Below, piece after piece: positions 6,001-61,691 of a stretch of 64,000 nucleotides of DNA (position 1 is its first letter; the number at the start of each line of letters is the position of its first letter). The notes beneath the pieces are model-generated. The model was not told the DNA's origin and made no database searches. It was given only the letters and a program-made list of their open reading frames with translations. The stretch comes from Mesostigma viride (taxonomy: Eukaryota; Streptophyta; Mesostigmatophyceae; Mesostigmatales; Mesostigmataceae): positions 5,831,269 through 5,895,268 of the forward strand of contig RPFO01000065.1 in assembly GCA_009746045.1 (NCBI GenBank). The letters are read 5' to 3'. The translations under genes were made by a program, and so were the position numbers.

Positions 6001-9000
6001 ATGAGATACTCTCACCGTCTGGTGCAGGCCCAACGGTGGGTGCAATACAACAGAGCTGTTGGGATACCAGACCATGTTGGGATACCAGACCATGTTGGGA
6101 TACCAGACCATGTTGGGATACCAGACCATGTTGGGATACCAGACCATGTTGGGATACCAGACCATGTTGGGATACCAGACCATGTTGGGATACCAGACCA
6201 TGTTGGGATACCAGACCATGTTGGGATACCAGACCATGTTGGGATACCAGACCATGTTGGGATACCAGACCATGTTGGGATACCAGACCATGTTGGGATA
6301 CCAGACCATGTTGGGATACCAGACCATGTTGGGATACCAGACCATGTTGGGATACCAGACCATGTTGGGATACCAGACCATGTTGGGATACCAGACCATG
6401 TTGGGGTACCAGACCATGTTGGGATACCAGACCATGTTGGGATACCAGACCATGTTGGGATACCAGACCATGTTGGGATACCAGACCATGTTGGGGTACC
6501 AGACCATGTTGGGATACCAGACCATGTTGGGATACCAGACCATGTTGGGATACCAGACCATGTTGGGGTACCAGACCATGTTGGGATACCAGACCATGTT
6601 GGGGTACCAGACCATGTTGGGATACCAGACCATGTTGGGATACCAGACCATGTTGGGATACCAGACCATGTTGGGATACCAGACCATGTTGGGGTACCAG
6701 ACCATGTTGGGATACCAGACCATGTTGGGATACCAGACCATGTTGGGATACCAGACCATGTTGGGATACCAGACCATGTTGGGGTACCAGACCATGTTGG
6801 GATACCAGACCATGTTGGGGTACCAGACCATGTTGGGGTACCAGACCATGTTGGGATACCAGACCATGTTGGGGTACCAGACCATGTTGGGATACCAGAC
6901 CATGTTGGGGTACCAGACCATGTTGGGATACCAGACCATGTTGGGATACCAGACCATGTTGGGATACCAGACCATGTTGGGGTACCAGACCATGTTGGGG
7001 TACCAGACCATGTTGGGATACCAGACCATGTTGGGATACCAGACCATGTTGGGATACCAGACCATGTTGGGATACCAGACCATGTTGGGATACCAGACCA
7101 TGTTGGGATACCAGACCATGTTGGGATACCAGACCATGTTGGGATACCAGACCATGTTGGGATACCAGACCATGTTGGGATACCAGACCATGTTGGGATA
7201 CCAGACCATGTTGGGGTACCAGACCATGTTGGGGTACCAGACCATGTTGGGATACCAGACCATGTTGGGGTACCAGACCATGTTGGGGTACCAGACCATG
7301 TTGGGATACCAGACCATGTTGGGATACCAGACCATGTTGGGATACCAGACCATGTTGGGATACCAGACCATGTTGGGATACCAGACCATGTTGGGATACC
7401 AGACCATGTTGGGATACCAGACCATGTTGGGATACCAGACCATGTTGGGATACCAGACCATGTTGGGATACCAGACCATGTTGGGGTACCAGACCATGTT
7501 GGGATACCAGACCATGTTGGGATACCAGACCATGTTGGGATACCAGACCATGTTGGGATACCAGACCATGTTGGGATACCAGACCATGTTGGGATACCAG
7601 ACCATGTTGGGATACCAGACCATGTTGGGATACCAGACCATGTTGGGGTACCAGACCATGTTGGGATACCAGACCATGTTGGGATACCAGACCATGTTGG
7701 GATACCAGACCATGTTGGGATACCAGACCATGTTGGGGTACCAGACCATGTTGGGATACCAGACCATGTTGGGATACCAGACCATGTTGGGATACCAGAC
7801 CATGTTGGGATACCAGACCATGTTGGGATACCAGACCATGTTGGGATACCAGACCATGTTGGGGTACCAGACCATGTTGGGATACCAGACCATGTTGGGA
7901 TACCAGACCATGTTGGGATACCAGACCATGTTGGGATACCAGACCATGTTGGGATACCAGACCATGTTGGGATACCAGACCATGTTGGGATACCAGACCA
8001 TGTTGGGATACCAGACCATGTTGGGGTACCAGACCATGTTGGGATACCAGACCATGTTGGGGTACCAGACCATGTTGGGATACCAGACCATGTTGGGATA
8101 CCAGACCATGTTGGGATACCAGACCATGTTGGGATACCAGACCATGTTAGGGTACCAGACCATGTTGGGATACCAGACCATGTTGGGATACCAGACCATG
8201 TTGGGATACCAGACCATGTTGGGGTACCAGACCATGTTGGGATACCAGACCATGTTGGGATACCAGACCATGTTGGGATACCAGACCATGTTGGGGTACC
8301 AGACCATGTTGGGATACCAGACCATGTTGGGATACCAGACCATGTTGGGATACCAGACCATGTTGGGATACCAGACCATGTTGGGATACCAGACCATGTT
8401 GGGGTACCAGACCATGTTGGGATACCAGACCATGTTGGGATACCAGACCATGTTGGGATACCAGACCATGTTGGGATACCAGACCATGTTGGGATACCAG
8501 ACCATGTTGGGATACCAGACCATGTTGGGGTACCAGACCATGTTGGGATACCAGACCATGTTGGGATACCAGACCATGTTGGGATACCAGACCATGTTGG
8601 GGTACCAGACCATGTTGGGATACCAGACCATGTTGGGATACCAGACCATGTTGGGGTACCAGACCATGTTGGGATACCAGACCATGTTGGGATACCAGAC
8701 CATGTTGGGATACCAGACCATGTTGGGATACCAGACCATGTTGGGATACCAGACCATGTTGGGATACCAGACCATGTTGGGATACCAGACCATGTTGGGG
8801 TACCAGACCATGTTGGGATACCAGACCATGTTGGGGTACCAGACCATGTTGGGATACCAGACCATGTTGGGGTACCAGACCATGTTGGGATACCAGACCA
8901 TGTTGGGGTACCAGACCATGTTGGGATACCAGACCATGTTGGGATACCAGACCATGTTGGGATACCAGACCATGTTGGGATACCAGACCATGTTGGGATA

Positions 9001-12000
9001 CCAGACCATGTTGGGGTACCAGACCATGTTGGGATACCAGACCATGTTGGGATACCAGACCATGTTGGGATACCAGACCATGTTGGGATACCAGACCATG
9101 TTGGGATACCAGACCATGTTGGGATACCAGACCATGTTGGGGTACCAGACCATGTTGGGATACCAGACCATGTTGGGATACCAGACCATGTTGGGATACC
9201 AGACCATGTTGGGGTACCAGACCATGTTGGGATACCAGACCATGTTGGGATACCAGACCATGTTGGGATACCAGACCATGTTGGGATACCAGACCATGTT
9301 GGGATACCAGACCATGTTGGGATACCAGACCATGTTGGGATACCAGACCATGTTGGGATACCAGACCATGTTGGGATACCAGACCATGTTGGGATACCAG
9401 ACCATGTTGGGATACCAGACCATGTTGGGATACCAGACCATGTTGGGATACCAGACCATGTTGGGGTACCAGACCATGTTGGGATACCAGACCATGTTGG
9501 GATACCAGACCATGTTGGGATACCAGACCATGTTGGGATACCAGACCATGTTGGGTACCAGACCATGTTGGGATACCAGACCATGTTGGGATACCAGACC
9601 ATGTTGGGATACCAGACCATGTTGGGATACCAGACCATGTTGGGATACCAGACCATGTTGGGATACCAGACCATGTTGGGATACCAGACCATGTTGGGGT
9701 ACCAGACCATGTTGGGGTACCAGACCATGTTGGGGTACCAGACCATGTTGGGATACCAGACCATGTTGGGATACCAGACCATGTTGGGATACCAGACCAT
9801 GTTGGGATACCAGACCATGTTGGGATACCAGACCATGTTGGGATACCAGACCATGTTGGGATACCAGACCATGTTGGGATACCAGACCATGTTGGGGTAC
9901 CAGACCATGTTGGGATACCAGACCATGTTGGGATACCAGACCATGTTGGGATACCAGACCATGTTGGGATACCAGACCATGTTGGGGTACCAGACCATGT
10001 TGGGATACCAGACCATGTTGGGATACCAGACCATGTTGGGATACCAGACCATGTTGGGATACCAGACCATGTTGGGATACCAGACCATGTTGGGATACCA
10101 GACCATGTTGGGATACCAGACCATGTTGGGATACCAGACCATGTTGGGATACCAGACCATGTTGGGATACCAGACCATGTTGGGGTACCAGACCATGTTG
10201 GGATACCAGACCATGTTGGGATACCAGACCATGTTGGGATACCAGACCATGTTGGGATACCAGACCATGTTGGGATACCAGACCATGTTGGGGTACCAGA
10301 CCATGTTGGGATACCAGACCATGTTGGGGTACCAGACCATGTTGGGATACCAGACCATGTTGGGGTACCAGACCATGTTGGGATACCAGACCATGTTGGG
10401 ATACCAGACCATGTTGGGATACCAGACCATGTTGGGATACCAGACCATGTTGGGATACCAGACCATGTTGGGATACCAGACCATGTTGGGATACCAGACC
10501 ATGTTGGGATACCAGACCATGTTGGGATACCAGACCATGTTGGGGTACCAGACCATGTTGGGATACCAGACCATGTTGGGATACCAGACCATGTTGGGAT
10601 ACCAGACCATGTTGGGATACCAGACCATGTTGGGGTACCAGACCATGTTGGGATACCAGACCATGTTGGGATACCAGACCATGTTGGGATACCAGACCAT
10701 GTTGGGGTACCAGACCATGTTGGGATACCAGACCATGTTGGGATACCAGACCATGTTGGGATACCAGACCATGTTGGGATACCAGACCATGTTGGGATAC
10801 CAGACCATGTTGGGATACCAGACCATGTTGGGATACCAGACCATGTTGGGGTACCAGACCATGTTGGGATACCAGACCATGTTGGGATACCAGACCATGT
10901 TGGGATACCAGACCATGTTGGGGTACCAGACCATGTTGGGATACCAGACCATGTTGGGATACCAGACCATGTTGGGATACCAGACCATGTTGGGATACCA
11001 GACCATGTTGGGGTACCAGACCATGTTGGGATACCAGACCATGTTGGGATACCAGACCATGTTGGGATACCAGACCATGTTGGGGTACCAGACCATGTTG
11101 GGATACCAGACCATGTTGGGGTACCAGACCATGTTGGGATACCAGACCATGTTGGGATACCAGACCATGTTGGGATACCAGACCATGTTGGGATACCAGA
11201 CCATGTTGGGGTACCAGACCATGTTGGGATACCAGACCATGTTGGGATACCAGACCATGTTGGGATACCAGACCATGTTGGGGTACCAGACCATGTTGGG
11301 GTACCAGACCATGTTGGGATACCAGACCATGTTGGGATACCAGACCATGTTGGGATACCAGACCATGTTGGGATACCAGACCATGTTGGGATACCAGACC
11401 ATGTTGGGATACCAGACCATGTTGGGGTACCAGACCATGTTGGGATACCAGACCATGTTGGGATACCAGACCATGTTGGGATACCAGACCATGTTGGGAT
11501 ACCAGACCATGTTGGGGTACCAGACCATGTTGGGATACCAGACCATGTTGGGATACCAGACCATGTTGGGGTACCAGACCATGTTGGGATACCAGACCAT
11601 GTTGGGATACCAGACCATGTTGGGATACCAGACCATGTTGGGATACCAGACCATGTTGGGGTACCAGACCATGTTGGGATACCAGACCATGTTGGGGTGC
11701 GCACAGAAACCAGACCAAGGTAGATATGCATATGGTCCAACGTCTCGGGCTACCCCGAGCAGTTATGCGGAAGCACGGGAGCGCGTTCTCACTTCTCAGC
11801 AAACGAGGGTGGGCAGCCGCACGGAAAAGGAGACGTGCGCACCTGGTAACACAATCTGCCTTGGTTTGGAAAGTAGCGAAACTGTTTAGGGCTTAGGGCG
11901 ACACACTGGGTGACCTCCTCTTCCCACACGTGACATTACACAATGCTACGTATGGCACCTAATGGCTGATTTGTAACAAGTGCACCAAAATGCATGCAGA

Positions 12001-21055: not shown

Positions 21056-21070
21056 ACCCAACTTGAGATG

Positions 21071-23425
21071 TTGAGTTGAGTTGAGTTGAGTTGAGTTGAG
21101 TTGAGTTGAGTTGAGTTGAGTTGAGTTGAGTTGAGTTGAGTTGAGTTGAGTTGAGTTGAGTTGAGTTGAGTTGAGTTGAGTTGAGTTGAGTTGAGTTGAG
21201 TTGAGTTGAGTTGAGTTGAGTTGAGTTGAGTTGAGTTGAGTTGAGTTGAGTTGAGTTGAGTTGAGTTGAGTTGAGTTGAGTTGAGTTGAGTTGAGTTGAG
21301 TTGAGTTGAGTTGAGTTGAGTTGAGTTGAGTTGAGTTGAGTTGAGTTGAGTTGAGTTGAGTTGAGTTGAGTTGAGTTGAGTTGAGTTGAGTTGAGTTGAG
21401 TTGAGTTGAGTTGAGTTGAGTTGAGTTGAGTTGAGTTGAGTTGAGTTGAGTTGAGTTGAGTTGAGTTGAGTTGAGTTGAGTTGAGTTGAGTTGAGTTGAG
21501 TTGAGTTGAGTTGAGTTGAGTTGAGTTGAGTTGAGTTGAGTTGAGTTGAGTTGAGTTGAGTTGAGTTGAGTTGAGTTGAGTTGAGTTGAGTTGAGTTGAG
21601 TTGAGTTGAGTTGAGTTGAGTTGAGTTGAGTTGAGTTGAGTTGAGTTGAGTTGAGTTGAGTTGAGTTGAGTTGAGTTGAGTTGAGTTGAGTTGAGTTGAG
21701 TTGAGTTGAGTTGAGTTGAGTTGAGTTGAGTTGAGTTGAGTTGAGTTGAGTTGAGTTGAGTTGAGTTGAGTTGAGTTGAGTTGAGTTGAGTTGAGTTGAG
21801 TTGAGTTGAGTTGAGTTGAGTTGAGTTGAGTTGAGTTGAGTTGAGTTGAGTTGAGTTGAGTTGAGTTGAGTTGAGTTGAGTTGAGTTGAGTTGAGTTGAG
21901 TTGAGTTGAGTTGAGTTGAGTTGAGTTGAGTTGAGTTGAGTTGAGTTGAGTTGAGTTGAGTTGAGTTGAGTTGAGTTGAGTTGAGTTGAGTTGAGTTGAG
22001 TTGAGTTGAGTTGAGTTGAGTTGAGTTGAGTTGAGTTGAGTTGAGTTGAGTTGAGTTGAGTTGAGTTGAGTTGAGTTGAGTTGAGTTGAGTTGAGTTGAG
22101 TTGAGTTGAGTTGAGTTGAGTTGAGTTGAGTTGAGTTGAGTTGAGTTGAGTTGAGTTGAGTTGAGTTGAGTTGAGTTGAGTTGAGTTGAGTTGAGTTGAG
22201 TTGAGTTGAGTTGAGTTGAGTTGAGTTGAGTTGAGTTGAGTTGAGTTGAGTTGAGTTGAGTTGAGTTGAGTTGAGTTGAGTTGAGTTGAGTTGAGTTGAG
22301 TTGAGTTGAGTTGAGTTGAGTTGAGTTGAGTTGAGTTGAGTTGAGTTGAGTTGAGTTGAGTTGAGTTGAGTTGAGTTGAGTTGAGTTGAGTTGAGTTGAG
22401 TTGAGTTGAGTTGAGTTGAGTTGAGTTGAGTTGAGTTGAGTTGAGTTGAGTTGAGTTGAGTTGAGTTGAGTTGAGTTGAGTTGAGTTGAGTTGAGTTGAG
22501 TTGAGTTGAGTTGAGTTGAGTTGAGTTGAGTTGAGTTGAGTTGAGTTGAGTTGAGTTGAGTTGAGTTGAGTTGAGTTGAGTTGAGTTGAGTTGAGTTGAG
22601 TTGAGTTGAGTTGAGTTGAGTTGAGTTGAGTTGAGTTGAGTTGAGTTGAGTTGAGTTGAGTTGAGTTGAGTTGAGTTGAGTTGAGTTGAGTTGAGTTGAG
22701 TTGAGTTGAGTTGAGTTGAGTTGAGTTGAGTTGAGTTGAGTTGAGTTGAGTTGAGTTGAGTTGAGTTGAGTTGAGTTGAGTTGAGTTGAGTTGAGTTGAG
22801 TTGAGTTGAGTTGAGTTGAGTTGAGTTGAGTTGAGTTGAGTTGAGTTGAGTTGAGTTGAGTTGAGTTGAGTTGAGTTGAGTTGAGTTGAGTTGAGTTGAG
22901 TTGAGTTGAGTTGAGTTGAGTTGAGTTGAGTTGAGTTGAGTTGAGTTGAGTTGAGTTGAGTTGAGTTGAGTTGAGTTGAGTTGAGTTGAGTTGAGTTGAG
23001 TTGAGTTGAGTTGAGTTGAGTTGAGTTGAGTTGAGTTGAGTTGAGTTGAGTTGAGTTGAGTTGAGTTGAGTTGAGTTGAGTTGAGTTGAGTTGAGTTGAG
23101 TTGAGTTGAGTTGAGTTGAGTTGAGTTGAGTTGAGTTGAGTTGAGTTGAGTTGAGTTGAGTTGAGTTGAGTTGAGTTGAGTTGAGTTGAGTTGAGTTGAG
23201 TTGAGTTGAGTTGAGTTGAGTTGAGTTGAGTTGAGTTGAGTTGAGTTGAGTTGAGTTGAGTTGAGTTGAGTTGAGTTGAGTTGAGTTGAGTTGAGTTGAG
23301 TTGAGTTGAGTTGAGTTGAGTTGAGTTGAGTTGAGTTGAGTTGAGTTGAGTTGAGTTGAGTTGAGTTGAGTTGAGTTGAGTTGAGTTGAGTTGAGTTGAG
23401 TTGAGTTGAGTTGAGTTGAGTTGAG
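21071..23425. repeat. (TTGAG)n satellite, 471 perfect copies
   Basis: 2,355 bp of TTGAG without any visible substitution or indel, ending in an AT-rich TTTATATATATTCATTG sequence. It is upstream of the kinase gene. The perfect homogeneity contrasts with the variant-rich 18-bp array and suggests recent expansion, or assembly collapse or inflation. An 802-codon minus-strand frame (LNSTQ repeats) is an artefact. Confidence 0.98.
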
Positions 23426-23587
23426 TTTATATATATTCATTGAGAATGATAGATTACGGAGGTGAGATAGGCATGCAACATAAGGAAAAACCCGATAACT
23501 GGGAGAATAACCCTGAAGAAATTAATAGTAATCTGACACAGACATCCAAGGATCACGCCAGCGGCACAAGGTACAACTAACTATACA

Positions 23588-25330: not shown

Positions 25331-25511
25331 GGGGAAACTGGTATACTGGAGGGGGGCGGTCATGCATCCACGTTGACCACAAGCCCTGGCAGGCACCTTC
25401 TGCCACCCCAGCAAACTCAATCTAGGGAATATATAACAGTAGTGTACGTAGATTAATTAATTAATTAATTAGTCTCGTGCTCCCGTTGGGGATCGAGTCA
25501 CGGAGCATTAA

Positions 25512-27409
25512 CACGTCGTACGTCAAAACTCAGTCCTAAAAATAGGACTGAGTATGCCAACTTTGAGATCATGTAGCGGTAAGGGTAGGGGGGTACCCCA
25601 TATGTTTGATATGCATCAGAGCACTCAATATCATGCTAATGCTTGGGCATATGCCTAAAAAATCATATGTTGACCAAATCATGTAAAATTTTACAAGGGT
25701 GTCAACCCATGCTCGCGATTTGGCAATTTTCTGTGGAAGGACGAGTTGGGAAAATGCAATAAAATCCATATGCATGTTGAAAAAATATAGGCGTGTAAAC
25801 AATATAGTTCTTGAAACATGGCAAAAAACTGGGCTCAATTTGGCCACAGCCTCTACCTGAAACTCACCAAAAACCACCAGCCCTAAGAATGGGTTTCGAG
25901 GTTGCTAGCAATGTGCAAGCATGTAAGTGCGGTCATACTACACACCACCGTGGCAACCAACCATGCCAATCAACTCATTTCCCTTCTTGCATAACAGGAA
26001 AACATACTTGCATCATCATATTGCAGTTATATTATACTTTAGTATATGTGTGAGAGCCTATGCACGCACGTAGGGAATGGGCATTGATACCTACCTACAA
26101 AGGGTTTTATTATGAGCCTTAACCACCAATATAATGGGTAGGTTAAGCATATTTCAATTGTTTTTAACAAGAATAGAGATGGCTAACACTGTCTTGCCTT
26201 GCCAGGGCATGGCCAACATAGTTGCTGGCACATGATGACAGTGGTTTATCACCAAGATTCTTCACTCACCCGTATAAGCTTGAAAGCACGCTGGATGCAG
26301 CCCATGGCCATACAATCACGCAGTATGAACGTAGCAAAAGAATAACTAACATCTATGAAGGTATTTAAATCCATACAGCGCCTAAAAAACTGCAAAAGTA
26401 CACTAGGGTAAGGCAAATGCCTGGTAACATCATAAAAAATGGGGGGTTTAGAGAGGGGCAGGCAACGGTCAAGAAAGCGCATCAAGATTCGAAACTGACA
26501 GCGCCTTGCAAGCTCAAACTCATGTAAGAACATAACAAAACGATGAGGTGACGATATTTCAGCTTTACCGTGCACGGATGGCGTTATCTTGGCCCAGGCG
26601 GTGCCCGCAAAAGTGACACTTGCGGCACACAAACCATGACATGACAGAGTGGTCGAAATCATCAAATCTTTACTGCCACTGACTTAATTCTACACACATG
26701 CATGATAATAAGTAGAAAGAAGCATATAAACCCTTCGAAATGCACCGTAAAGTAAATTTAGTCATCAATTCCGTCAACCTGCCTGGTCGCAGTTTTTTCC
26801 AGCAAGAGCAGTGCCGACACCTGGTAAATCGCATCCCCGGGAGCTAAAAATTGGTTTGTGTCATCTTTAGGACATATAAAATCTATTTCCTGGGTTTTAC
26901 CAGCTAAATCGTCCGCAAACGTAAACTGCATGCATGGGCGCAAGCCGCCATGGCTAGGTCGTGCATTTCCGGAACTCACGTTTCACGTGAAAAAGTACCC
27001 TTACCACCTGTACTTTGACCGTACATTTAGCCGCCCAAACAAAATCCAAAAAAATCGCAAAAATATGTCTAAGAAAGGTCATTTTACGTAGTATTTGAAT
27101 AAATTTTGAGGGAATTTTTTTGACAAACATTCCGACTTGGGCGAATTTTCTACGAAACCCAAAAACTCAGTCCTAAGAATAGGACTGATGAGTGCAGATG
27201 AGTGCAGCCTGCAGGTGTTGAGCCATGTCGCGTTGTCATACAGTACAGTAATTATATCCGGCCCTCGGCCACTATACTGTACAGAATTCTGTAGAATTCT
27301 CTGCTGCTGACTGCGGCGTGGGACACAACTACAGAGAGGACTTACCCCGACACTTACCCCGACTGAGTTGAACTCAGTCCTAAGAATAGGTGCAGTGACG
27401 AACGACGTG
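25512..27409. mobile_element. TTAA-duplicating DNA transposon with 14-bp TIRs, nested in the LINE
   Basis: Left end CACGTCGTACGTCA at 25512-25525; right end, read from the other strand, CACGTCGTTCGTCA at 27409-27396 (13 of 14 identical). TTAA flanks it at 25508-25511 and 27410-27413. The related LINE copy at 53571 has GGGGTTAATGCTCC uninterrupted, giving the empty site. TTAA duplication is typical of the piggyBac superfamily, though these tips are not the usual piggyBac tips. Subterminal palindromes CTCAGTCCTA-n-TAGGACTGAG occur at 25529 and 27165, and part of one near 27371. The interior is AT-rich compared with the LINE and has only short frames (for example 138 codons, minus, 26665-26249) without a recognisable transposase, so it is probably non-autonomous. 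Confidence 0.88.
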
Positions 27410-27519
27410 TTAACCCCGATGGATGGATGGATGGGTGCAAACAGTCCTACCGGTCTGAGCTATCTACATCCGCTACCTATATGACATCTATCTAACAGCA
27501 TTCTAACTACAACATCTAT

Positions 27520-30500
27520 CTAGACAGCCTCACGCTGCCCTAGGGGACCTGTCTGGCGTGCCTCCCACGGGTTTGCACACGCGGGCGCTTCCCCACAGGG
27601 GGGCCGGGGCTGGTTGTCCTCTATGACCTGGGCCCACTTGGCCTTGTCCATCATCTTCGTCCAAATCACGGAGAGGCCTAGGCCCCCCATGTCCTCTACT
27701 AGCTGTTCTTTGAAGGTGCGGGCCTTGCGGCGTCTAACATCACTGGGCCCGGCCCACGTCAGGAGGTGCCGGCCAGGCTGAGCTGGTCGCAGACCTGCGG
27801 GGGGGCCACGTGAGGTGTCAACCTGCATGGTTGGTGCGAGCTAAGTGCCCTACTAGCTGCAGGCGCCGGTGCTTAATGGTGTTGGTGATATATGGCATGC
27901 CCTGATACAGATCCTCGTTGCATGCGGACATGTGCAGCATATCCTACTCTGAAAATGGAACGCAGCATATGCTGGTGACCGCGCCGTCCAGCTTGCGGGC
28001 CAGGTCGGCGGTGAGGGTCCACGTCTCGGCCCCATACGTGAGAACAGGAAGGACGAGGACCTAGTTAATTGAACAGGTCTTGTTTCTCGATCTTGCCCAG
28101 GGGCTTGCGCCACAGGGCCCGGTACTGGCGTAAAGCGTGCCAAGCGAGGGAGATGCGATGCATGGTCCACATCAACCTCGCAGCTGGGGAGCAGGCTGCC
28201 CAGCAGCTTGACGCGGTCCCGATATACAGGACTCGAGAGCCGTCGAGGAGATAGAGGGGGGGCGGTGGGTGGGTTCACGAGCCCAACCACAAGGGCCTCT
28301 GTCTTCTTGCTGACCTCAAGCCCCACTGCACGGGCCTCGATAGCCAGGCAGTCAAGCCATGTCTGCACGTGCCCGGTGTCCTCGAAGAGGGTGGTGTCGT
28401 CTGCGTAGATGATGTCTGCCAGCCGAATCTCAGTGTCCGCTCCGCCATGCCAATATTTGTTATAGCGACCTGCACCCTTGGTTCCCTACCCACGATGCGA
28501 GCAAATCGCTTGCGCGCCTGAATCATTATACGTATTCGACCACAATAATTAATGAACAGGTACTGTAGGGCGACAGCACGCAGCCCTGCCACACACCCTT
28601 CTGTAAAGGGCATGGGGGCGTGGTCCCGTAAGAAGTGCGCACCGAAGTGGTGGACCCTTCATACAGGTTGCGGATGACAGCAATAAGGGGGCGGGGGATC
28701 TGGAACAACTCGAGGATGTCCCAAAGCGCAGGCCAGAAAACCGAATCGAAGGCTTTTTTGATGAAGTCCACCAGCACAAGGTGCAAAGGGGACTCACCAG
28801 GCTGAAGGCGTTGCAGTTCCTCCACCAGGCGGCGAGTAGCGAAGAGCGCCTGTACTGTGTTGCGACCTGAGCGGAAGCCGTGCTGAGTCTCGCTGAGGTG
28901 ACCGTCCAGGGCCGTACGTGCGCAGGCGGTTCAGGATGAGCCGCATAAGAAGCTTGAGGGGGGCACTTTGAATGCACACCCCTCTGTAGTTGCCGGGGTC
29001 GGCAGGCGACCCCTTGTTCTTGTACAGTGCATCGTGCGAAAACTGTGTTGCCAGGCCGCTGGAGGTGGTTGCGACGACAGCGGAAGGCGGTTGCAGATGT
29101 CCCGGAAGAGCAGCATAACACCTGTGTCTTCGAATTCGGCTGCAAGTTTTACATTTGCGGCAGGAATCTCGTCAGAGCCGGTGGCTGCGTCATAATAACG
29201 CAGGCGCTGGACCGCCTCCGTGACCTCGCGAGAGGTGAAAGGAGGCATGTCAGACGGGTCGCCAAGTGGGCCGACCAGCGGGGGGACTAGGTAGTCCGCC
29301 GCTGACCTAGGCGGGGCTGGGGGCCTGGACCGCCTCCGTGACCTCGCGAGAGGTGAAAGGAGGCATGTCAGACGGGTCGCCAAGTGGGCCGACCAGCGGG
29401 GGGACTAGGTAGTCCGCCGCTGACCTAGGCGGGGCCGGGGGCCCAGCGGTGAGCGGGGCCGGCCAGGGCGGCCGGGCGGGCGCGGCGGCGGCTGGGAGCA
29501 GGGGCGGGGGCGGCACAGCTGTCCCCACGACCTCGGCCGTGGCCGTGGCCCAGGTACGAAGCCGCTTGGCTGGGGCGCCGGGGACGTCGTGGCGGTGGGG
29601 CCGGCCGATCGTCCGGGTGCCCGAGGCGCTTGTACCAGAACCAGCCCCCCTTGCCGGCGTGCTTCTGCTGGCAGCGGCGCAGGTCCTTGACCATCTGCTG
29701 AGCGTCTGCCTTCTCAGCCTGCTCGTAGGCGGCCCTCAGAGCTGCTTGCAGCCCAGGTTTGGCGATCGGATCCCTGTTGCGGCGGAGCATCTGCCTGGCG
29801 GCGACCACTGTCGGTGCGTGACGGTGGACAGCAAGCTGTCGGCGCGGAGGCAAGGTGGGGAGGGTGCGGGCAGCCAGGCGATACTTGGCAGCGACATGCA
29901 CCGCGGAGGATCACTGAAATATCACCCGGCGGCGGAATGGCGTGTAACTGCTGCACGGCTGCGCCCCGGGCGTCGAAGACGGCCAGGAAATCATCCCTGT
30001 GCGACATAGCGGCCTGCTCTGCTGCTGACATCTTGTCGGCATCCTTCATCACAATCCGGAGCACCTTCAGATCTGGCTGAGGCGCCAGCTGTCGCGACGG
30101 TTTCACCCCAGGAAACCGCAATCTGATGCGAGCAAGCACGAGACGGTGCATGATCAGATTCCACTGTGCTGACAGAATCTTGCAGGACGCGAGCATCGAC
30201 AACTGCATGAGGGGCGCTGAGCCCGACGTACGCAGATATAGTCAAGGCACACCACCCGATCCGACGGCCCAAAAAAGGTGGCAAGCTGCTCAGCGGGGCG
30301 TGCGAAAGAAGCATTGCATGCAACCAGCGCAGATTCTGCCAGCAGATTCGCAAATAAAGGCCGGCGTGTTACCGTTGGCTGTCGTGTTGGTTGGGGAGTA
30401 CTGAGCGCCCCCAGTGCCAACTGGCAGCGTGGCGTTGGCGTCGAGCAGCATAACCAGGAAGTGCCGAGCTGGGATGTTGGCCTCCTCCTCCTTGAGGGCG

Positions 30501-44526: not shown

Positions 44527-47500
44527 AACACACCACAACGCGCGCACGCACACACACATCCACATGCATACAGATGGTGAACAAGGTGGCGCTGGAGCTG
44601 TGGGGCTACGCCAACATGGACGAGCTCATGGCCAAGAACGTGCGCATGCTCATGCCTCCGCCCTACAGCGGCGCGCATGACGGCTACCTGGTCGAGTACA
44701 ACCGCTCTGCGAAGGCCAAGGTCATGGGCACCACGCGCACGGTGCACGCGCTGCACAAGGAGAAGTAGGTGGCAGTGCATGGGCAGCATGTTGTGTACGA
44801 GCGAGGTTGTCATGAGGGATGGATTCCCTCTATTGTGGAGCGTGAGGAATCGTACTTTGCATCAGGATCCTGTGCCAGGGGGATGGTAGAAGTATTGTGT
44901 GGTTGTGCGAGTGATTGCTCCTCCCGTCTTTTGCTACAGACAAGTGCATGCCAGTACGCCCCACGTTATACCTCAACTGTCTATTTAGCCCCGGTCCGCC
45001 TACTTACATAACTCTGGGTCCTTGTGGGTTGGGGTCCGACCGCGTTGCACCTATGCAACAGCTTGCTCTACCCTCTCCCGCGCATGCCCCCCCCCCCCCC
45101 CCCCCCCCCCCCTTCCCCGCTCTCTAGAGTTTGAAGCTTTATGTTCAACGTCTGCTGTGGTTGCGGTAGCGACTGAAATTCCTTTCCTCGGGTGCTAAAC
45201 AGCATTTCTCGTGGCATCACGTCTGCCAGCAAGCTCAACTGCCCCATTTCCAACAAGCCCCATCCCTACCCACCCTAATCCTCAACGACAACACTTGCAA
45301 TATCCCGGTGCCCGACTGACCGCCCCGCCGCAGGCACACATTTCCGATCAGCCTGACCCTGTCGACCGTGGACAGCAACGGCAAGGTCACGTACATGGCC
45401 GTGGTGCGCGCGGTGGAGGAGGATGAGTCCATCTTGTTCAGTGTGGAGGGCAAGACGGGCAAGCTGTTGACCAGCAACATGGCGTTCACGACCATCCTTG
45501 GCTACAGCGCCGCCGACGCCAAGGGTCTCGCCGCGGGGAAGGTGATTGCCGAGCCGGGCGCACAGAACGAGCGCGAGCTGGCGGCCTACCTGGAGGAGTT
45601 TGTTCTGGCGCCCGGCATGCGCGACACACTCCCCCATGTGCGCATGTGCACGCGCGGCAATCAATTCCTGGGCGCCACCCTCTCGGTGGCCAAGGTCGGT
45701 GAGGGCGACGGCCGCGTGTTCCTGTGCACGATGCGCTCGCTCGCGGATGACGCGGGGACGATGACGATCGATGACAAGGGCAAGATCCTCGCCGTTAACA
45801 AGGTGGGCCCAGGGGGGGGGGGCGGGGGGCAGGGTGAGAATGGGCAGATGTTCCATTGATAGCATTTTTGCCACGCAGGCACAGGGGGTGGCATGGAGGG
45901 AAAGGGGTGGGAAAGGCACGGGGGCAGTGAGGGAAGAGCGGATGGGACGAATAAGTGTGTGAGGTGGTTGACAGTGGAGAGCTTCTTCAAGCTATCTTCC
46001 CATGATGTCAACTTGGTACGTTGGTATCTGCTGTGGGTGACTTGGAGCAGTGGCAAGGGGAGCGGGCGGCAAAGTGTCAATTGTTGCCCATGCTAAGTCA
46101 ATGGGACGGACGGGTGATGCGCCGAGTGCAGGCTAGACTTGAATTCTCGTTAATCTTCCTTTGTCTCTTGGAACAGCAGTACGACAAGCTTTTTGCCATG
46201 GCTTTACGCCCTTGTGGCCCTCTTCTTAGTGCCAGTGACTGGTATGATCCTTGACTGGTATGATGCGCGGGCCTTTGACTTTGGCTTGCCCACCTTGCAT
46301 TGCCTGACATCACGTCCAATATCCTGCTCGTGCCCTCGTCATCCCTCCCGTCCCCTTTCTCCCCCTCCCCCCCCCATTACCCTCTGCCCCATTCGCCCTC
46401 CCGCCCTGCCCTCCTCCCCTTTCCCCCCCGGCAGTACGTGGCGGACCTGCTGGGCTACTCGCGCGACAAACTGCTGGAGATGAACGTGAACGCGCTCATG
46501 CCGATGCCCTACTGCCGCTTCCACAACGGGTACCTTACGAACTACGTGGCAGGCCACCCGAGTGGGCGCGTCGTCGGGATGCCGGGTGGGCGGACTGTGC
46601 AGGCGCTGCATGCGAGCGGGAAGACCGTTCCCATCCAGCTCTCCGTGGAGGAAGGCAAGCCCAGCAAGGCGTCGGGCGGCGGGGGCGGCAAGCCCGCGCG
46701 CACGTTTAATGCTCGCATCTCGGCGGTCGATAAAGCCAAGCCGGACCCCCGCCAGGTGGACATGATCGTGAACGAGCAGACACTTGAGGTGCTCTCCGTC
46801 TCGCCCGCGTGCGAGCTGCTGCTGGGCTACAAGGTGGAGGACCTGATGGGCAAGCGCATTAGCAGCCTGCTCAAGCGCGAGGACAACGCCGAGGTGGATG
46901 ACCTGCTCGAGCTGCAGGAGGCGGAGGCCGGCCGCGGCAAGTCCAACCGTAGCGGCTGGCGCTTCCACATGAAGGTCGGGCCGGGCATGTCCAGTGCCGA
47001 GCAGCTGGCCAAGGGCATGCGCAGCGACGAGGGGTGGGAGGGCTACTTCCCTTGCTCGATCGCGATCAACCGCGCGGGGTATAACCCGGACAAGGACGCG
47101 GGGGGGAACGACCTGGTCGATGTGGGGGCGAGCGAGATGGAGGGGATCAGCCTCAAGATCTACCCGGCGTCGCTTCTCGAGGCGCTTATCGCGATCGACA
47201 TGACGGGCCGCGTGACGTACGCCAACGCCGACATGGAGCGCATGTTCGGGCGCAAGATTGCTGAGCTCGTCGGGCGCAACGTGGCGCAGATCATGCCCAA
47301 GGAGGTGGCCGCGCATCACGACGGCTACGTGCGCAACTACCTCAACACGGGCGTCAAGAAGCTAATCGGGACGCGCCGCACTGTCGAGGCGCGTGTGCGC
47401 TGCGGCGTGCCCCTCTTTGTCGACCTGGAGCTGTCCGAGGTCACCTCCCCGGCCATGCTCGCGCAGGCGGGCCTCCAGGGCGCCGCGCCAGGGACCCGCT

Positions 47501-50500
47501 TCATCGCCCGCATCGTCCAGACGCTCCAGAGCAGCGCGGAGCAGGAGGCCGAGGGGCGCCAATCGGACGCCGGCAGCAGCGCGGGAGGGGGCCCCACGAT
47601 CTTCGCGCCGGGGGTGGGCCTGAATGGCCACGGGAGCAGCCACAGCCACGGACACCACGGCCGCGTGATCGTGGGCGCGCCCGGTATCCCCCAGCTCAAG
47701 CTCCCTGATGTCGGGTCCCTGGTCAACGTTGACCGCAGCTCCATGTCAGGGACACCGGACACGACCACGACCGGCGCTGTCACTGCCCGCAACGTCGACG
47801 TCGGGTTCCTGGACGAGGGCGGCGGGACGGCGTCATCGTCAGTGACCGGTGGGAGTGCTTACGGAGGGGGCAACGGCTACGGCCAACCGCATAGCGGCCA
47901 CGGCCCCCCTGGCCGGCGCAACAGCATGGAGAGCATCGCGTCGAGCGCGGACTCGGACTCGCCACTCGTGCGCATGCGCGAGCTGGACAGCGCGCACCCG
48001 CACCACAGCGGCGCGCCGTCGGCCAAGGAGACGTTCTGGTCGATGGCCAAGGCCAACCTGCGCAAGAAGACAGAAGCGATCGTGCCCGGGATGCTGAGCT
48101 CGTCGGTGAGCCGCCCCGTGTGGGTGGACGAGGTGGCGTCCTCGGCCAAGAAGCGCGCGGGCACGCCCCCCCTGGTCAAGAAGGGCGCGGCGGGCAGCCA
48201 CCCGTTCTCGTCCCTGGCGGTCCCCGATGACGACGGCGCGAGCGACACGGAGAGCACAGGCACGCCCGGCACGCCGGACATGCGCCGGTCGCTGCTCGCA
48301 ACCAAGGAGCGGCGGGGCAGCGCCCACCGCGCGCAGGTGCTCATCAGCGGGGGCGGCGAGAACGTCGCGCACAAGCAGTCCAAGGTGCCCTTTGGCATCG
48401 AGGCGTTCCTTAACGACCAGGTGGCCGCGCCCGCGCCGCCCACCGAGGCCCACGACGAGGGCGACGACTCCCTCCCCGTGTCCAGCCCCGCGGGCCTCGT
48501 CATGTCCGGGGGCGAGCCGCGCAGCGCGCTCACCGCCAAGGGGGGCAAGGAGCGGCGAGAGCCGACCGACCGCAAGCAGCCCGTCCGGTTCGACGACGAC
48601 GAGGAGGACCCGGCGGCGGGGATGTCGACGCGGGGTGGGGCCATGGGAGCGACGGGTCGCAGCGGGGCAGACGGCGGCGACGGCAAGAGAACAGCGGGGG
48701 TGGACGACGCTGAGGACGAGAATGCACTCTCTGCGCGCCGGTCGCGCCGGTACAAGCGGCTCGTGCGGCTGCTGGGTGGGTGGGGCGTCCTGCGCGCGGC
48801 CCAGCGGGCGCGGCTGCACTCGCGCCTGGTCCTGTGGAGCCTCCTGCTGGCGCACGTGGTGCTGTTCGCCGCCACGCGGTACTTTGTGCGGCGGCACAAG
48901 GCGCTCATCCAGCACACGGACGCGGCGGGCACCGCGACCGGCTACGCGGCCGAGGTGCTGGTGGACGCCCGCACCATGGACGTGGTCGGGTTTGGTGGCG
49001 CGGCTGCAGCCTACTCATACTACCGGTCGCACAATGCAAGCGCATTCATGGCGGCCACCAACGACCACATGATGTCCATCCTGGACGTGTTTGAGTCGAC
49101 GCTCGAGTGGCTCTTCCTCGTGTACTCGGACGTGGGGGGGGCGCCCTCGGAGGACTCGCTCGCACACCTCTTCTCGACGCCGTCCCTCGACTTGGTCGAT
49201 TTCCAGGACACCGACCCCCCCCGGCTGGTCCCCTTCCAGATGGGCCTGTGGGATGCCTCCCGGCGGCTCATCGCCGACGGGCGCAAGCTGGCGCTCGCGT
49301 CGGACGAGGACAAGTCGTTGGGCCTCACGCACGACCGATCGTGGCGGTACCTGATCGACAACGGGCGCACAGTGATCATTCCCGCTCTGGAGCGCGCGCA
49401 GGAGCTGCAGCTGATGCGCACGATCGACTCGCAGGAGGCATTGCTCAAGCTGTTTGCCGTTGTCTTTGCGATCGAGGCCGGCGTGATCGTGCTGTTCGCG
49501 ATCCTGCACCTTGTGCGGCTCATCGCCGCCATCGGGGACGAGCGGCTGCGCACGTTCAGCATCTTCCTCTACGTGCCGCGCCCGCTGCTACGCATGCTCG
49601 CGTCCAAGAACCTCTCGGTCGGCGAGGAGGCTCTAGGGGACGCCGACGCGGGCGCGCAGGGCACCGTGGGCACCAACGACAGCGACGAGATGGCCCCCGG
49701 CGGTGGTGGCGACGCCGATGAGTCGTCGCGTGCGGCCTTCTTTGCGTCCACCCCCCGCGGGACCGACTCCCCCCGTGGGACAGGGACCCTGGGGAAGAAG
49801 CGCGGATCGGCGTTCAGCCGGCTGCGGCCGCGTGCGCTCGCGTCGATGATGTTTGTCCCCGCGGTCGTCGCGAGCAAGAAGCGACGCCAGCTCATCGCCG
49901 ACGGCATGGGCACCGTGCGCTACCTGCTCCCCTGCGTCGGCTTCCTGCTCCTGTCCTGCATGGGTTTCGCCATCACCTACTTTGTCATGGCGCGCTCGCT
50001 GGACCCGCTGCACGACATCGACGCAGCGCGCATGGAGATCTACCTGTCGACGCGCGTGATCTACGACACGCAGGAGCTCGTCGTGGCCGCACAGCGCGAG
50101 CCAACGTCGCCCAACGTGGCCGCTCGCCGGAGGGACTTGGCCGACACGGCCGAGTGGCACATGCGCTACCACAAGGGGCTCCTGTTTGGGGACCCCACGC
50201 TCGGGCTGACCGGGTCGCTCTACCACGGCGCCGGAATCGAGCAGCTCCAGTTTGGCGTGAACCAGTGCCTGCGGCGGGTCAAGTCACTGTGCTGGAACGC
50301 GAGCAACGACTACTACGTGACGACGCAGTCGGGCGTGGACGCGCTCACGCACGCGTTCACAAAGTACGCCAAGGTGCTCGCGCTCGACTCGGTCGCTGAC
50401 TTGTCCCCCGACGTGAGCGGCCGCTTCCACTACATCTGGGACGTGGGCCACGCGGACCTGCGCGATGGGCTGACCGCGCTCGCCGACAAGTACATCGAAT

Positions 50501-50922
50501 CGGCCATGAGCGGTATCGCGATCGACAACATCGTCGCCTCGTCCGTGTTCGCCGTCATCGTGGTCAGCCTGTGGCTGTACAACTACTACATGCTACGGCC
50601 ACTTGTCGCGATCGCGCGCAAGGAGAGCGACCGCGTGGCCGAGCTGCTCTCGCAGCTGCCCGCCACGCTCAACCTCGACACGATCATCACCGAGGTCTCT
50701 CGCCGCCAGCTCGTCTTTGACGGCTCCTTCTTCAGCTTCCGCTCCAAGGCGCTCATCGTGGACGGGCGCTCGCTTCAGGCGGCGAGCAAGGACCCATCGG
50801 ACACGCCACCGCTCGCCGACCTGGACATGAAGGAGATGCTGCCCAACACGCCAAAGGCGCCCTCGCGCATCGAAAAGGTCGGCGGGTTTTTCAACAAGGT
50901 CATGAACGACTATCTCATCTGA
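34624..50922 (+). CDS. Tmc-type (tiny macrocysts B-like) multi-PAS membrane sensor protein
   Basis: A large multi-exon gene. Exons with matching phases: 35823-35906, 37455-37526, 38640-38749, 39544-39643, 40183-40312, 40907-41514, 42041-42252, 42601-42676, 43007-43129, 43778-43915, 44574-44764, 45334-45802 and 46435-50922 (stop). Probable 5' exons are a start at 34624 (MGREKDEDDAASIQSGSTAA) and 34953-34993 (DAVFGVLYTLSREK); at least one exon joining them is unresolved. The N-terminal third is a multi-pass membrane block (TFYIAVFFILSAIL, NALYFGLFYMSCILLI and others). A helical segment with the family motifs VSYVEFQ, MHRRALMATRDFWLVL and KLLRSYAAFLEEVQ comes next, then PAS domains. Related proteins occur in protists and green algae and are annotated as tiny macrocysts B; their ligands are unknown. 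About 2,266 residues are mapped. The intron after 35906 uses a GC donor. Family assignment rests on remembered motifs. Confidence 0.9.
39738..40035. repeat. (CTCC)n tract followed by (CA)n in a Tmc-gene intron
   Basis: About 270 bp of CTCC repeats with scattered one-base deletions, then CTCTCGCTCGCTCTCGCTC and a short CA run. It lies in the intron 39644-40182, about 150 bp before the acceptor, with the pyrimidine strand being the sense strand. Confidence 0.95.
44415..44530. repeat. (CA)n tract close to a 3' splice site
   Basis: Runs of CA interrupted by TTACT and CTCACAAACAC, ending about 45 bp before the acceptor CATACAG at 44573. It is unusually close to the splice site for a variable-length repeat. 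The same intron region has short C-rich stretches. Confidence 0.92.
46435..50922 (+). CDS. Terminal 4.5-kb exon of the Tmc-type gene: PAS repeats and C-terminal membrane module
   Basis: One open frame of 1,495 codons follows acceptor CCCGGCAG. It completes PAS 3 (LLGYSRDKLLEMNVNALMP, then HNGYLTNYV), then holds PAS 4 (LLGYKVEDLMGKRISSLLKR, about 46766-46930) and PAS 5 (ALIAIDMTGRVTYANADMER, about 47173-47440, with HHDGYVRNY). PAS 1 and 2 are encoded by the preceding exons (43868-45750). The motif 'MP-----H-GY---Y' with '-G--RTV-A' recurs in PAS 1, 3 and 5, implying internal duplication. A Gly/Ser/charged linker spans about 47530-48780. Four hydrophobic segments follow: LVLWSLLLAHVVLFAATRYF (48828), AVVFAIEAGVIVLFAILHLV (49459), LLPCVGFLLLSCMGFAITYF (49924) and SSVFAVIVVSLWLYNYYMLR (50538). 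No kinase, cyclase or other output domain is visible. Confidence 0.95.
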   Translation, partial: YVADLLGYSRDKLLEMNVNALMPMPYCRFHNGYLTNYVAGHPSGRVVGMPGGRTVQALHASGKTVPIQLSVEEGKPSKASGGGGGKPARTFNARISAVDKAKPDPRQVDMIVNEQTLEVLSVSPACELLLGYKVEDLMGKRISSLLKREDNAEVDDLLELQEAEAGRGKSNRSGWRFHMKVGPGMSSAEQLAKGMRSDEGWEGYFPCSIAINRAGYNPDKDAGGNDLVDVGASEMEGISLKIYPASLLEALIAIDMTGRVTYANADMERMFGRKIAELVGRNVAQIMPKEVAAHHDGYVRNYLNTGVKKLIGTRRTVEARVRCGVPLFVDLELSEVTSPAMLAQAGLQGAAPGTRFIARIVQTLQSSAEQEAEGRQSDAGSSAGGGPTIFAPGVGLNGHGSSHSHGHHGRVIVGAPGIPQLKLPDVGSLVNVDRSSMSGTPDTTTTGAVTARNVDVGFLDEGGGTASSSVTGGSAYGGGNGYGQPHSGHGPPGRRNSMESIASSADSDSPLVRMRELDSAHPHHSGAPSAKETFWSMAKANLRKKTEAIVPGMLSSSVSRPVWVDEVASSAKKRAGTPPLVKKGAAGSHPFSSLAVPDDDGASDTESTGTPGTPDMRRSLLATKERRGSAHRAQVLISGGGENVAHKQSKVPFGIEAFLNDQVAAPAPPTEAHDEGDDSLPVSSPAGLVMSGGEPRSALTAKGGKERREPTDRKQPVRFDDDEEDPAAGMSTRGGAMGATGRSGADGGDGKRTAGVDDAEDENALSARRSRRYKRLVRLLGGWGVLRAAQRARLHSRLVLWSLLLAHVVLFAATRYFVRRHKALIQHTDAAGTATGYAAEVLVDARTMDVVGFGGAAAAYSYYRSHNASAFMAATNDHMMSILDVFESTLEWLFLVYSDVGGAPSEDSLAHLFSTPSLDLVDFQDTDPPRLVPFQMGLWDASRRLIADGRKLALASDEDKSLGLTHDRSWRYLIDNGRTVIIPALERAQELQLMRTIDSQEALLKLFAVVFAIEAGVIVLFAILHLVRLIAAIGDERLRTFSIFLYVPRPLLRMLASKNLSVGEEALGDADAGAQGTVGTNDSDEMAPGGGGDADESSRAAFFASTPRGTDSPRGTGTLGKKRGSAFSRLRPRALASMMFVPAVVASKKRRQLIADGMGTVRYLLPCVGFLLLSCMGFAITYFVMARSLDPLHDIDAARMEIYLSTRVIYDTQELVVAAQREPTSPNVAARRRDLADTAEWHMRYHKGLLFGDPTLGLTGSLYHGAGIEQLQFGVNQCLRRVKSLCWNASNDYYVTTQSGVDALTHAFTKYAKVLALDSVADLSPDVSGRFHYIWDVGHADLRDGLTALADKYIESAMSGIAIDNIVASSVFAVIVVSLWLYNYYMLRPLVAIARKESDRVAELLSQLPATLNLDTIITEVSRRQLVFDGSFFSFRSKALIVDGRSLQAASKDPSDTPPLADLDMKEMLPNTPKAPSRIEKVGGFFNKVMNDYLI

Positions 50923-52509: not shown

Positions 52510-52521
52510 AATAAACGACGC

Positions 52522-53623
52522 ATCGTGGGCAGGGAACCAGGAGTGCAGGTTGCTAACAAATTCTGGCATGGCGGTGCGGACACGGAGATTCGGCTAGCAG
52601 ACATCATTTACGCAGACGACACCACCCTCTTCGAGGACACTGAGCACGTGCAGACATGGCTTGACTGCCTGGCTCTCGAGGCCCGTGCAGTGGGGCTTGA
52701 GGTCAGCAAGAAGACAGAGGCCCTGGCGGTTGGGCTCACCAACCAACCGCCGCCCCTCTATCTCCTAGACGGCTCTCGAGTCCTGTATCGGGACCGCGTT
52801 AAGCTGCTGGGCAGCCTGCTCCCCAGCTGCGAGGTGGATGTGGACCATCGCATCTCCCTCGCCTGGCACGCTTTACGCCAGTACCGGGCCCTGTGGCGCA
52901 AGCCCCTGGGCAAGATCGAGAAACAGGACCTGTTCAAGGTCCTCGTCCTTCCTGTTCTCACGTATGGCGCCGAGACGTGGACCCTCACCGCCGACCTGGC
53001 CCGCAAGCTGGACGGCGCGGTCACCAGCATGCTGCGTTCCATTTTCAGAGTAGGATATGCTGCTCATGTCCGCAATGAGGACCTGTACCAGGGCATGCCC
53101 TATATCACCAGCACCATTAAGCAACGCCGCCTGCAGCTAGTAGGGCACCTAGCTCGCACCAACCAGGTAGACACCTCACGTGGCGCCCCCCGCAGGTCTG
53201 CGACCAGCCCAGCCTGGCCGGCACCTCCTGACGTGGGCTGGGCCCAGTGATGTTAGACGCCGCAAGGCCCGCACCTTCAAAGAACAGCTAGTAGAGGACA
53301 TGGGGGGCCTAGGCCTCTCCGTGATTTGGAAGAAGATGATGGACAAGGCCAAGTGGGCCCAGGTCATAGAGGACAACGAGCCCCCCCAGTGGGGAAGCGC
53401 CCGCGTGTGCAATCCCGCGGGAGGCACGCCAGATAGCTCCCCCTAGGGCAGCGAGCGGCTGCCTAGATAGATGTTGTAGTTAGAATGCTGTTAGATAGAT
53501 GTAGTAGGTAGCCAATGTAGATAGATTAGACCGGTAGGAATGTTTGCACCCATCCATCCATCCATCGGGGTTAATGCTCCGTGACTCCCCAACGGGAGCA
53601 CGAGTCTTATTAATTAATTAATT
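52522..53623 (+). mobile_element. 5'-truncated LINE copy with 12-bp target duplication
   Basis: This is the same family as the full-length element at 25.5-32.8 kb, but on the plus strand and truncated within ORF2. It is flanked by AATAAACGACGC at 52510-52521 and 53624-53635. Homology starts with CATCGTGGGCAGGGAACC and runs to the 3' end with CATCCATCCATCCATCGGGG, TTAATGCTCCGTGACTCCCC, an imperfect hairpin and the (TTAA)n tail. It lacks the nested transposon found in the other copy. Both flanks and the tail are visible directly. Confidence 0.95.
52525..53446 (+). pseudogene. LINE ORF2 fragment (end of reverse transcriptase to C-terminus)
   Basis: The frame 52525-53250 reads through ADIIYADDTTLFEDTEHVQT (the YADD catalytic motif), GLEVSKKTEALAVGL, DRVKLLGSLLPSCEVDVDH, VLPVLTYGAETWTLTADLAR, ITSTIKQRRLQLVGHLARTN and into the C-terminus. 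A frameshift near 53180-53230 moves the remaining tail (FKEQLVEDMGGLGLSVIWKK) to another frame ending at 53446. This copy keeps the segment in a better state than the full-length element does. The N-terminal reverse transcriptase motifs and endonuclease are missing through 5' truncation. Confidence 0.92.
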
Positions 53624-53925
53624 AATAAACGACGCGAGGGTGCGCGCAAAACCAGAGAAGCAGCCCCTTGGTCAACGAATCATGAAGGCCAGCATGCAAT
53701 CAATGGCAAGACCTCAGCGGTGCGCTCGTCAGCGATGGCGGCCCGCAGGGCGTTGATGGCAAAATCGTCGGTGGTCGCATACCAGAACGCCGAGGATGTC
53801 CAACGCACGGAGACGTTCGTTCCAGCCCAGGAGCTGCAGCGGAAAGCCCGAGCAATCACCCTGGGGCGAGTACACCGCGTGCAATATTGGCCATGAGGGT
53901 CAACTATGTATGCATCAACGCATAT

Positions 53926-61588: not shown

Positions 61589-61691
61589 GTGAGCTGGTTG
61601 TGGGTTCAGGTCAACCGAATAAAGTGCTTTTGTTTGGAGGGGAAGATTGGCGAGCGGCTTATCCATCTGGGGCCTGGGGAAGGGGTGGATC

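Follow-up and report, generated by a model that had tools for sequence, protein, structure and literature searches.

The question raised by this locus is what moved a TTAA-flanked transposon into a LINE of the streptophyte alga Mesostigma viride when no transposase can be recognised within it. The window, that is, the whole 64,000-nucleotide stretch of DNA that was analysed, contains the element at 25508-27413 (1,906 bp with both TTAA counted). A sequence-only reading had placed the insertion to the base from a perfect TTAA duplication at its edges (25508-25511 and 27410-27413), 14-bp terminal inverted repeats identical at 13 of 14 positions (CACGTCGTACGTCA and CACGTCGTTCGTCA) and an uninterrupted homologous site in the same window, and had also described subterminal palindromes, nesting in a LINE and the lack of a transposase. 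Each of these observations was borne out, the palindromes being present at both element ends. The features are as follows.

25508..25511, no strand: left TTAA target-site duplication, seen in the letters and in the empty-site alignment
25512..25525, plus strand: left terminal inverted repeat CACGTCGTACGTCA, the same sequence as at either tip of L048, a transposase-bearing element
25508..25922, plus strand: left end region in common with L048, about 80% identical beyond the first 150 consensus positions
25529..25552, no strand: left subterminal 24-bp palindrome CTCAGTCC-N8-GGACTGAG (element positions 22-45), a probable transposase-binding site
25951..27021, no strand: interior, apparently non-coding, with 68% identity to that of a CCCC-tipped element nested in the family copy L037
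27166..27188, no strand: right subterminal palindrome, broken in the window copy by a later insert
27189..27360, no strand: secondary insert of 172 bp between GACTGA copies at 27183-27188 and 27361-27366
27360..27380, no strand: outer right subterminal half-sites, one at right-end positions 47-54 that the insert has altered, the other at 34-41
27396..27409, minus strand: right terminal inverted repeat CACGTCGTTCGTCA, pairing with the left tip at 13 of 14 positions
27410..27413, no strand: right TTAA target-site duplication, seen in the letters and in the empty-site alignment
27414..28499, minus strand: interrupted LINE copy, with its 3' tail at about 25447-25507
52519..53631, plus strand: second, uninterrupted LINE copy, with the empty TTAA at 53571-53574

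When the flanks of the element were joined and aligned with the second LINE copy in reverse complement, 190 of 213 columns were identical and the junction was gap-free with one TTAA. The host repeat was assigned to the LINEs from one full-length relative, in which a 1182-aa ORF matches RVT_1 (1.4e-25) and Exo_endo_phos; the ORF of the repeat itself gave 143 scored matches, its own location counted, from 20,047 first-look candidates. Pfam returned no credible domain for seven of the 45 listed open reading frames that overlap the element (top match E 0.31, far under the cut-off).

The host assembly (439,911,974 bases in 2,243 contigs) was searched for further copies, many of which had been expected. 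The exact tip with TTAA occurred at 159 sites (79 + 80), while its reversed form, used as a control, gave 0 + 0, and at up to two mismatches 135 + 140 sites were found, compared with 28 + 38. These counts suggest a genome total of roughly 80-105 elements. One hundred of the 159 sites were listed and resolved into 40 pairs and 20 singles; 33 pairs span 1,726-1,731 bp, and the other seven span 1,858, 1,906, 2,024, 2,083, 3,303, 4,054 and 4,711 bp. A search with the first 193 bp of the element produced 386 candidates, of which the best 40, including the window copy, were scored and were all 100% identical across the query. In the 39 fetched copies the query ensured the left TTAA, whose presence is therefore no independent evidence; the right tip, searched with up to two mismatches and without TTAA, was followed by TTAA in 36, as had been anticipated for other copies. 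The three exceptions were L025 and L027, with truncated right ends, and L012, which runs into N. A length of 1,723-1,739 bp with both TTAA was found in 34 of the 39, and nested insertions lie inside L011 and L037. The 4,054-bp pair on contig C1106 (L050) was rejected as a transposase source; it is a family copy with a large insert. In L011 (560-1173, family orientation) a copy comprising some 614 bp of left-end sequence runs straight into the left end of another copy, and the two have one TTAA in common.

A longer relative encoding a DDE transposase had also been named as a possible support, and one with the same tips was found in L048 (G000:C1413:1148162-1151464), which is 3,303 bp long, has tips matching at 14 of 14 positions and is flanked by TTAA on both sides. 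Its 855-aa frame is free of stops and encodes a protein (P0001) that matches DDE_Tnp_1_7 (PF13843) at 4.4e-49 in Pfam and, among solved structures, piggyBat (9c0f) best at 8.6e-16 and Trichoplusia ni piggyBac (6x67) at 3.2e-5. Across the seven transposases of this genome that were compared, the catalytic aspartates (459, 534 and 647) line up in every one. The C-terminus (C757, C760, C788, C791, C794, C799, C802 and H807) resembles a cysteine-rich domain, although no zinc domain passed the Pfam cut-off in this protein; most of these residues align in the relatives, the exceptions being C788, C799 (H in L051) and the partly aligning L055. The host genome as a whole gave 116 scored DDE_Tnp_1_7 matches among 463 candidates, all above the cut-off, and none of 14 control genomes gave any. 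The L048 protein itself retrieved 57 matches (2,672 candidates, 53 scored), and close relatives at 72-96% identity were located at five places (C202, two on C2, C502 and C1901), each broken or with stops. Among the 40 listed pairs, only those on C1413 and C202 have A at the variable position of both tips, and each of the two bears a transposase. Two of the relatives were set aside as candidate partners: L049 on C202, of 4,711 bp, has a broken frame and an insert near one end, and L053 on C2 showed one tip only. The intact-looking L048 transposase is thus predicted from its sequence to be the likely autonomous partner.

The ends of the 1,728-bp family and of L048 were compared by position. At the left end 149 of the first 150 consensus positions are identical to L048, after which identity falls to 18-23 of 25 per block, and at the right end 96 of the first 100 are identical, followed by 15-24 of 25 per block. 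The conserved zone spans the tip and the palindromes and may be what a shared transposase requires, the alternative being a recent conversion of the ends. Further in than 100-150 bp the similarity of the ends to those of L048 drops to about 80%, so the element could be moved directly by a different member of the L048 lineage. Taken together, the element is very probably a non-autonomous transposon of the piggyBac superfamily whose cut-and-paste movement at TTAA relies on a piggyBac transposase from another locus, most likely one of the L048 lineage. An enzyme of that lineage would act on it in trans, excising the element and reinserting it at another TTAA; by analogy with piggyBac and piggyBat, the cysteine-rich C-terminal part may dimerise on the CTCAGTCC-N8-GGACTGAG palindromes, of which there is one at the left end and a tandem set at the right. 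The burst that produced the 1,728-bp family is probably recent.

An alternative is that the main mobiliser was a different piggyBac lineage of this genome, for example one with CTCGT or CCCTT tips, acting through shared palindromes. Ends were found for L048 and four other transposase-bearing elements: L051 (3,332 bp, 63% protein identity to L048, tips CTCGTCGTCTGTC, CTCGT), L052 (3,333 bp, 43%, tips CCCTTMAACTGT, CCCTT), L057 (3,310 bp, 41%, tips CCCTTAAATGGTA, CCCTT) and the distant L055 (2,887 bp, tips CCCTTAGTCGGGA). In the family consensus and in L048 alike, the half-site CTCAGTCC/GGACTGAG occurs twice at one end (positions 22 and 38) and three times at the other (34, 47 and 63). L051 retains those at 22, 38, 34 and 47, L057 the same four plus an extra at 18, and L052 those at 38 and 63, where chance would give about 0.007 hits per 240 bases per element with equal base frequencies assumed. 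Since the half-sites stay at the same distances, the register is conserved in L051, L052 and L057 while the tips differ. No half-site was seen in the end bases of L055 that were examined. Exact CTCAGTCC or GGACTGAG was likewise absent from the fetched stretches of L054 (40% identity) and L056, whose element ends were not located; given its 40% identity, L054 speaks against a motif common to the whole lineage, provided that the fetched stretch includes its ends. Mobilisation by another lineage draws on half-sites in the same register and on many CTCGT- and CCCTT-lineage transposase copies without stops, but the tips of those lineages differ whereas those of L048 match, and it is regarded as unlikely.

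In a tree of seven proteins, L054 and L056 are sisters; of the four inner branches one is fully supported and two are open, the CACGT/CTCGT pairing has support of 84/99, and the branch to L055 is very long. With this limited support the direction of tip change is an inference; judging from their wider occurrence, CCCTT tips may be ancestral. The element nested in L011 (2,086 bp, CCCTTCAACTG) sits at a TTAA of that family copy, showed no long open frame, and has ends closely resembling those of the transposase-bearing L052.

A second alternative is that the family is a relic, in which the copies reflect an old spread, or segmental duplication and assembly haplotigs, and not recent transposition. 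Flanks are indeed common to L009 and L035, to L041 and L044, and to L015 and L042, so that part of the count is duplication or alternative assembly; the remaining printed flanks differ from one another. The 31 copies at distinct sites (the 35 aligned rows without the window copy and without three copies that have flanks in common) have a mean identity of 99.4% (range 98.6-100), a value biased upward because the compared copies were picked by similarity as the best 40 of 386. Their interiors, which had been expected to vary, are nearly identical instead. The joined flanks of 34 copies were also matched against the fetched loci and against the window, and for four of them (L026, L042, L045 and L046) a paralogous site with a single TTAA was found, at 94-99.7% identity across no fewer than 302 of 304 bases; such empty sites are repeat paralogues and not excision products. 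Weaker support came from L014 (partial, 96-98%) and L015 (86-89%). Several poorer flank matches lack a clean TTAA empty site and speak against recent transposition: the junction reads TGAA in L018 against L027 (89%) and TAAA in L021 against L015 (80%), is gapped for L019 against L011, L019 against the window and L045 against the window (79, 75 and 72%), and has three additional bases beside the TTAA in L021 against L033 (93%). With differing flanks, near-identical copies, empty sites and, in L048, an uninterrupted transposase with matching tips, the relic explanation is considered quite improbable. L015 and L042 occupy the identical TTAA position within one LINE family, by duplication or by independent insertion.

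Kolobok and Sola3 are other superfamilies that target TTAA. Movement by one of these is exceedingly unlikely, for although TTAA alone cannot separate the superfamilies and the tips violate the CCYT rule as quoted for piggyBac, the protein encoded between the L048 tips gave DDE_Tnp_1_7 (4.4e-49) as its sole Pfam domain over the cut-off and matched piggyBat at 8.6e-16.

Transposition by a piggyBac-type enzyme of the L048 lineage remains the preferred reading. The sequence-only reading had proposed piggyBac-like transposition from the TTAA target, and the finding of a piggyBac-type transposase between the same tips upholds that proposal. TTAA duplication was seen in the window copy against its empty site and in 36 of 39 copies, and L048 carries DDE_Tnp_1_7 with three catalytic aspartates between matching ends. 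Superfamily members also have a cysteine-rich C-terminal domain and excise through hairpin ends without leaving a footprint. A further feature of the superfamily is a 12-19 bp repeat starting CCYT, a rule stated in PMC5601938, and the 14-bp repeats here start CACG. Starts of CACTA (PMC10813416) and, in a beetle piggyBac clade, of CACGTT (PMC12732532) fall within the superfamily, so a CCYT start is not a strict requirement. The tips had been called unusual; this stands in so far as CACGT breaks the CCYT rule, but CAC starts are already known from piggyBat, with tips CACTTGG and CACTACG in the oligonucleotides given in PMC13405395, and from the beetle clade.

According to PMC11707139, the C-terminal domains of the piggyBat dimer bind imperfect palindromes near one end, and piggyBac has 19-bp palindromes that are asymmetric between its ends. 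The piggyBat element of Myotis lucifugus resembles the L048 system in TTAA targeting, CAC-starting tips, palindromes near an end and the best match to a solved transposase, and differs in its tips beyond CAC, its palindrome sequence, the algal host of the present system and a right end without a palindrome, whereas here both ends have one. The beetle CACGTT clade has a CACGT start and TTAA in common with L048 and differs in its beetle host. Trichoplusia ni piggyBac is alike in TTAA, the aspartate triad and palindromic internal repeats that are asymmetric between the ends, and unlike in its weak sequence match to the L048 protein.

The family had also been taken as undescribed, which holds within the literature searched: no paper describing the 1,728-bp family was found, the tip letters led to no transposon paper by title, and the papers listed for piggyBac with streptophytes or with Haematococcus showed no such element. 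The word piggyBac is absent from the main text, as available, of the Mesostigma genome paper (PMC6947507). IMG/VR gave 0 matches for the tip pattern and 0 for the palindrome pattern, phage records gave none, and Rfam gave no match on the window.

The interior does not come from L048. Consensus positions 1-415 and 1497-1728 align to L048, and the rest of the element matches nothing in nine transposase loci; a simple internal deletion of L048 was therefore rejected, as 415 + 232 bp of ends align and the interior does not. Positions 444-1515 share 68-69% identity with the interior of the 1,697-bp CCCCTAAATGG-tipped element nested at TTAA in L037 (L037:1420-3116), and a related interior occurs as a 1,065-bp stretch in L017. 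By these matches the element is a chimera, in which L048-type ends enclose an interior common to another TTAA family. The CCCCTAAATGG-tipped family, which has no half-site motif at the ends of the L037 insert, looks abundant (1,469 candidates, the 40 scored all at 100%). A coding interior was rejected, the substitutions against the L037 insert being even over codon positions (91/346, 100/348 and 102/345). Non-autonomous, MITE-like derivatives of piggyBac have only their ends in common with the transposase source and form many near-identical copies; Trichoplusia ni piggyBac itself has CCC tips. Unlike such derivatives, the present family is long for a MITE at 1.7 kb, and its interior is not an L048 deletion and resembles a differently tipped TTAA family.

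Combining these results, we consider it an evenly balanced proposition that one algal piggyBac lineage changed its cleavage tips (CCCTT twice at 41-43%, CTCGTCGT at 63%, CACGTCGT here) and kept its internal palindromes at the same distances, that recognition of tips and of internal sites evolves separately, and that interiors were swapped between TTAA families to yield chimeras that burst. The locus appears to represent a young two-part piggyBac system, an intact-looking enzyme with a non-autonomous burst, in a streptophyte alga; none was found in the literature searched. The Rubisco small subunit of the host matches that of spinach (1aa1, 9.6e-44) better than that of Chlamydomonas (1gk8, 6.8e-36). 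Sister families whose tips differ but whose internal sites are common amount to a natural experiment on the tip bases that piggyBac transposases read, and that reading is relevant to gene-delivery tools.

The window copy is 178 bp longer than the usual length of about 1,728 bp (both TTAA counted), owing to the 172-bp insert with its bordering 6-bp GACTGA duplication, which disrupts one right-end palindrome and arrived later than the element itself. Outside the insert the window copy has 10 differences from the family consensus in the first 1,681 positions and 0 in the last 53. Searched on its own (40 matches scored of 94 candidates, own place included), the insert has a 96% match at one further place, covering query positions 1-145 of 173, the other matches being partial. 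Positions of about 104-145 recur in many places at 91-98%, so the insert contains part of another repeat.

Elsewhere in the window, an 18-bp tandem repeat at 6057-11696 (313 copies, 98% matches) is open in several frames, and pentanucleotide arrays of GTTGA (x471, 100% matches) and TCCCT (x474) occupy 21070-23427 and 61690-64000, the latter reaching the window end. A 1547-aa open frame with PAS domains lies at 46279-50922.
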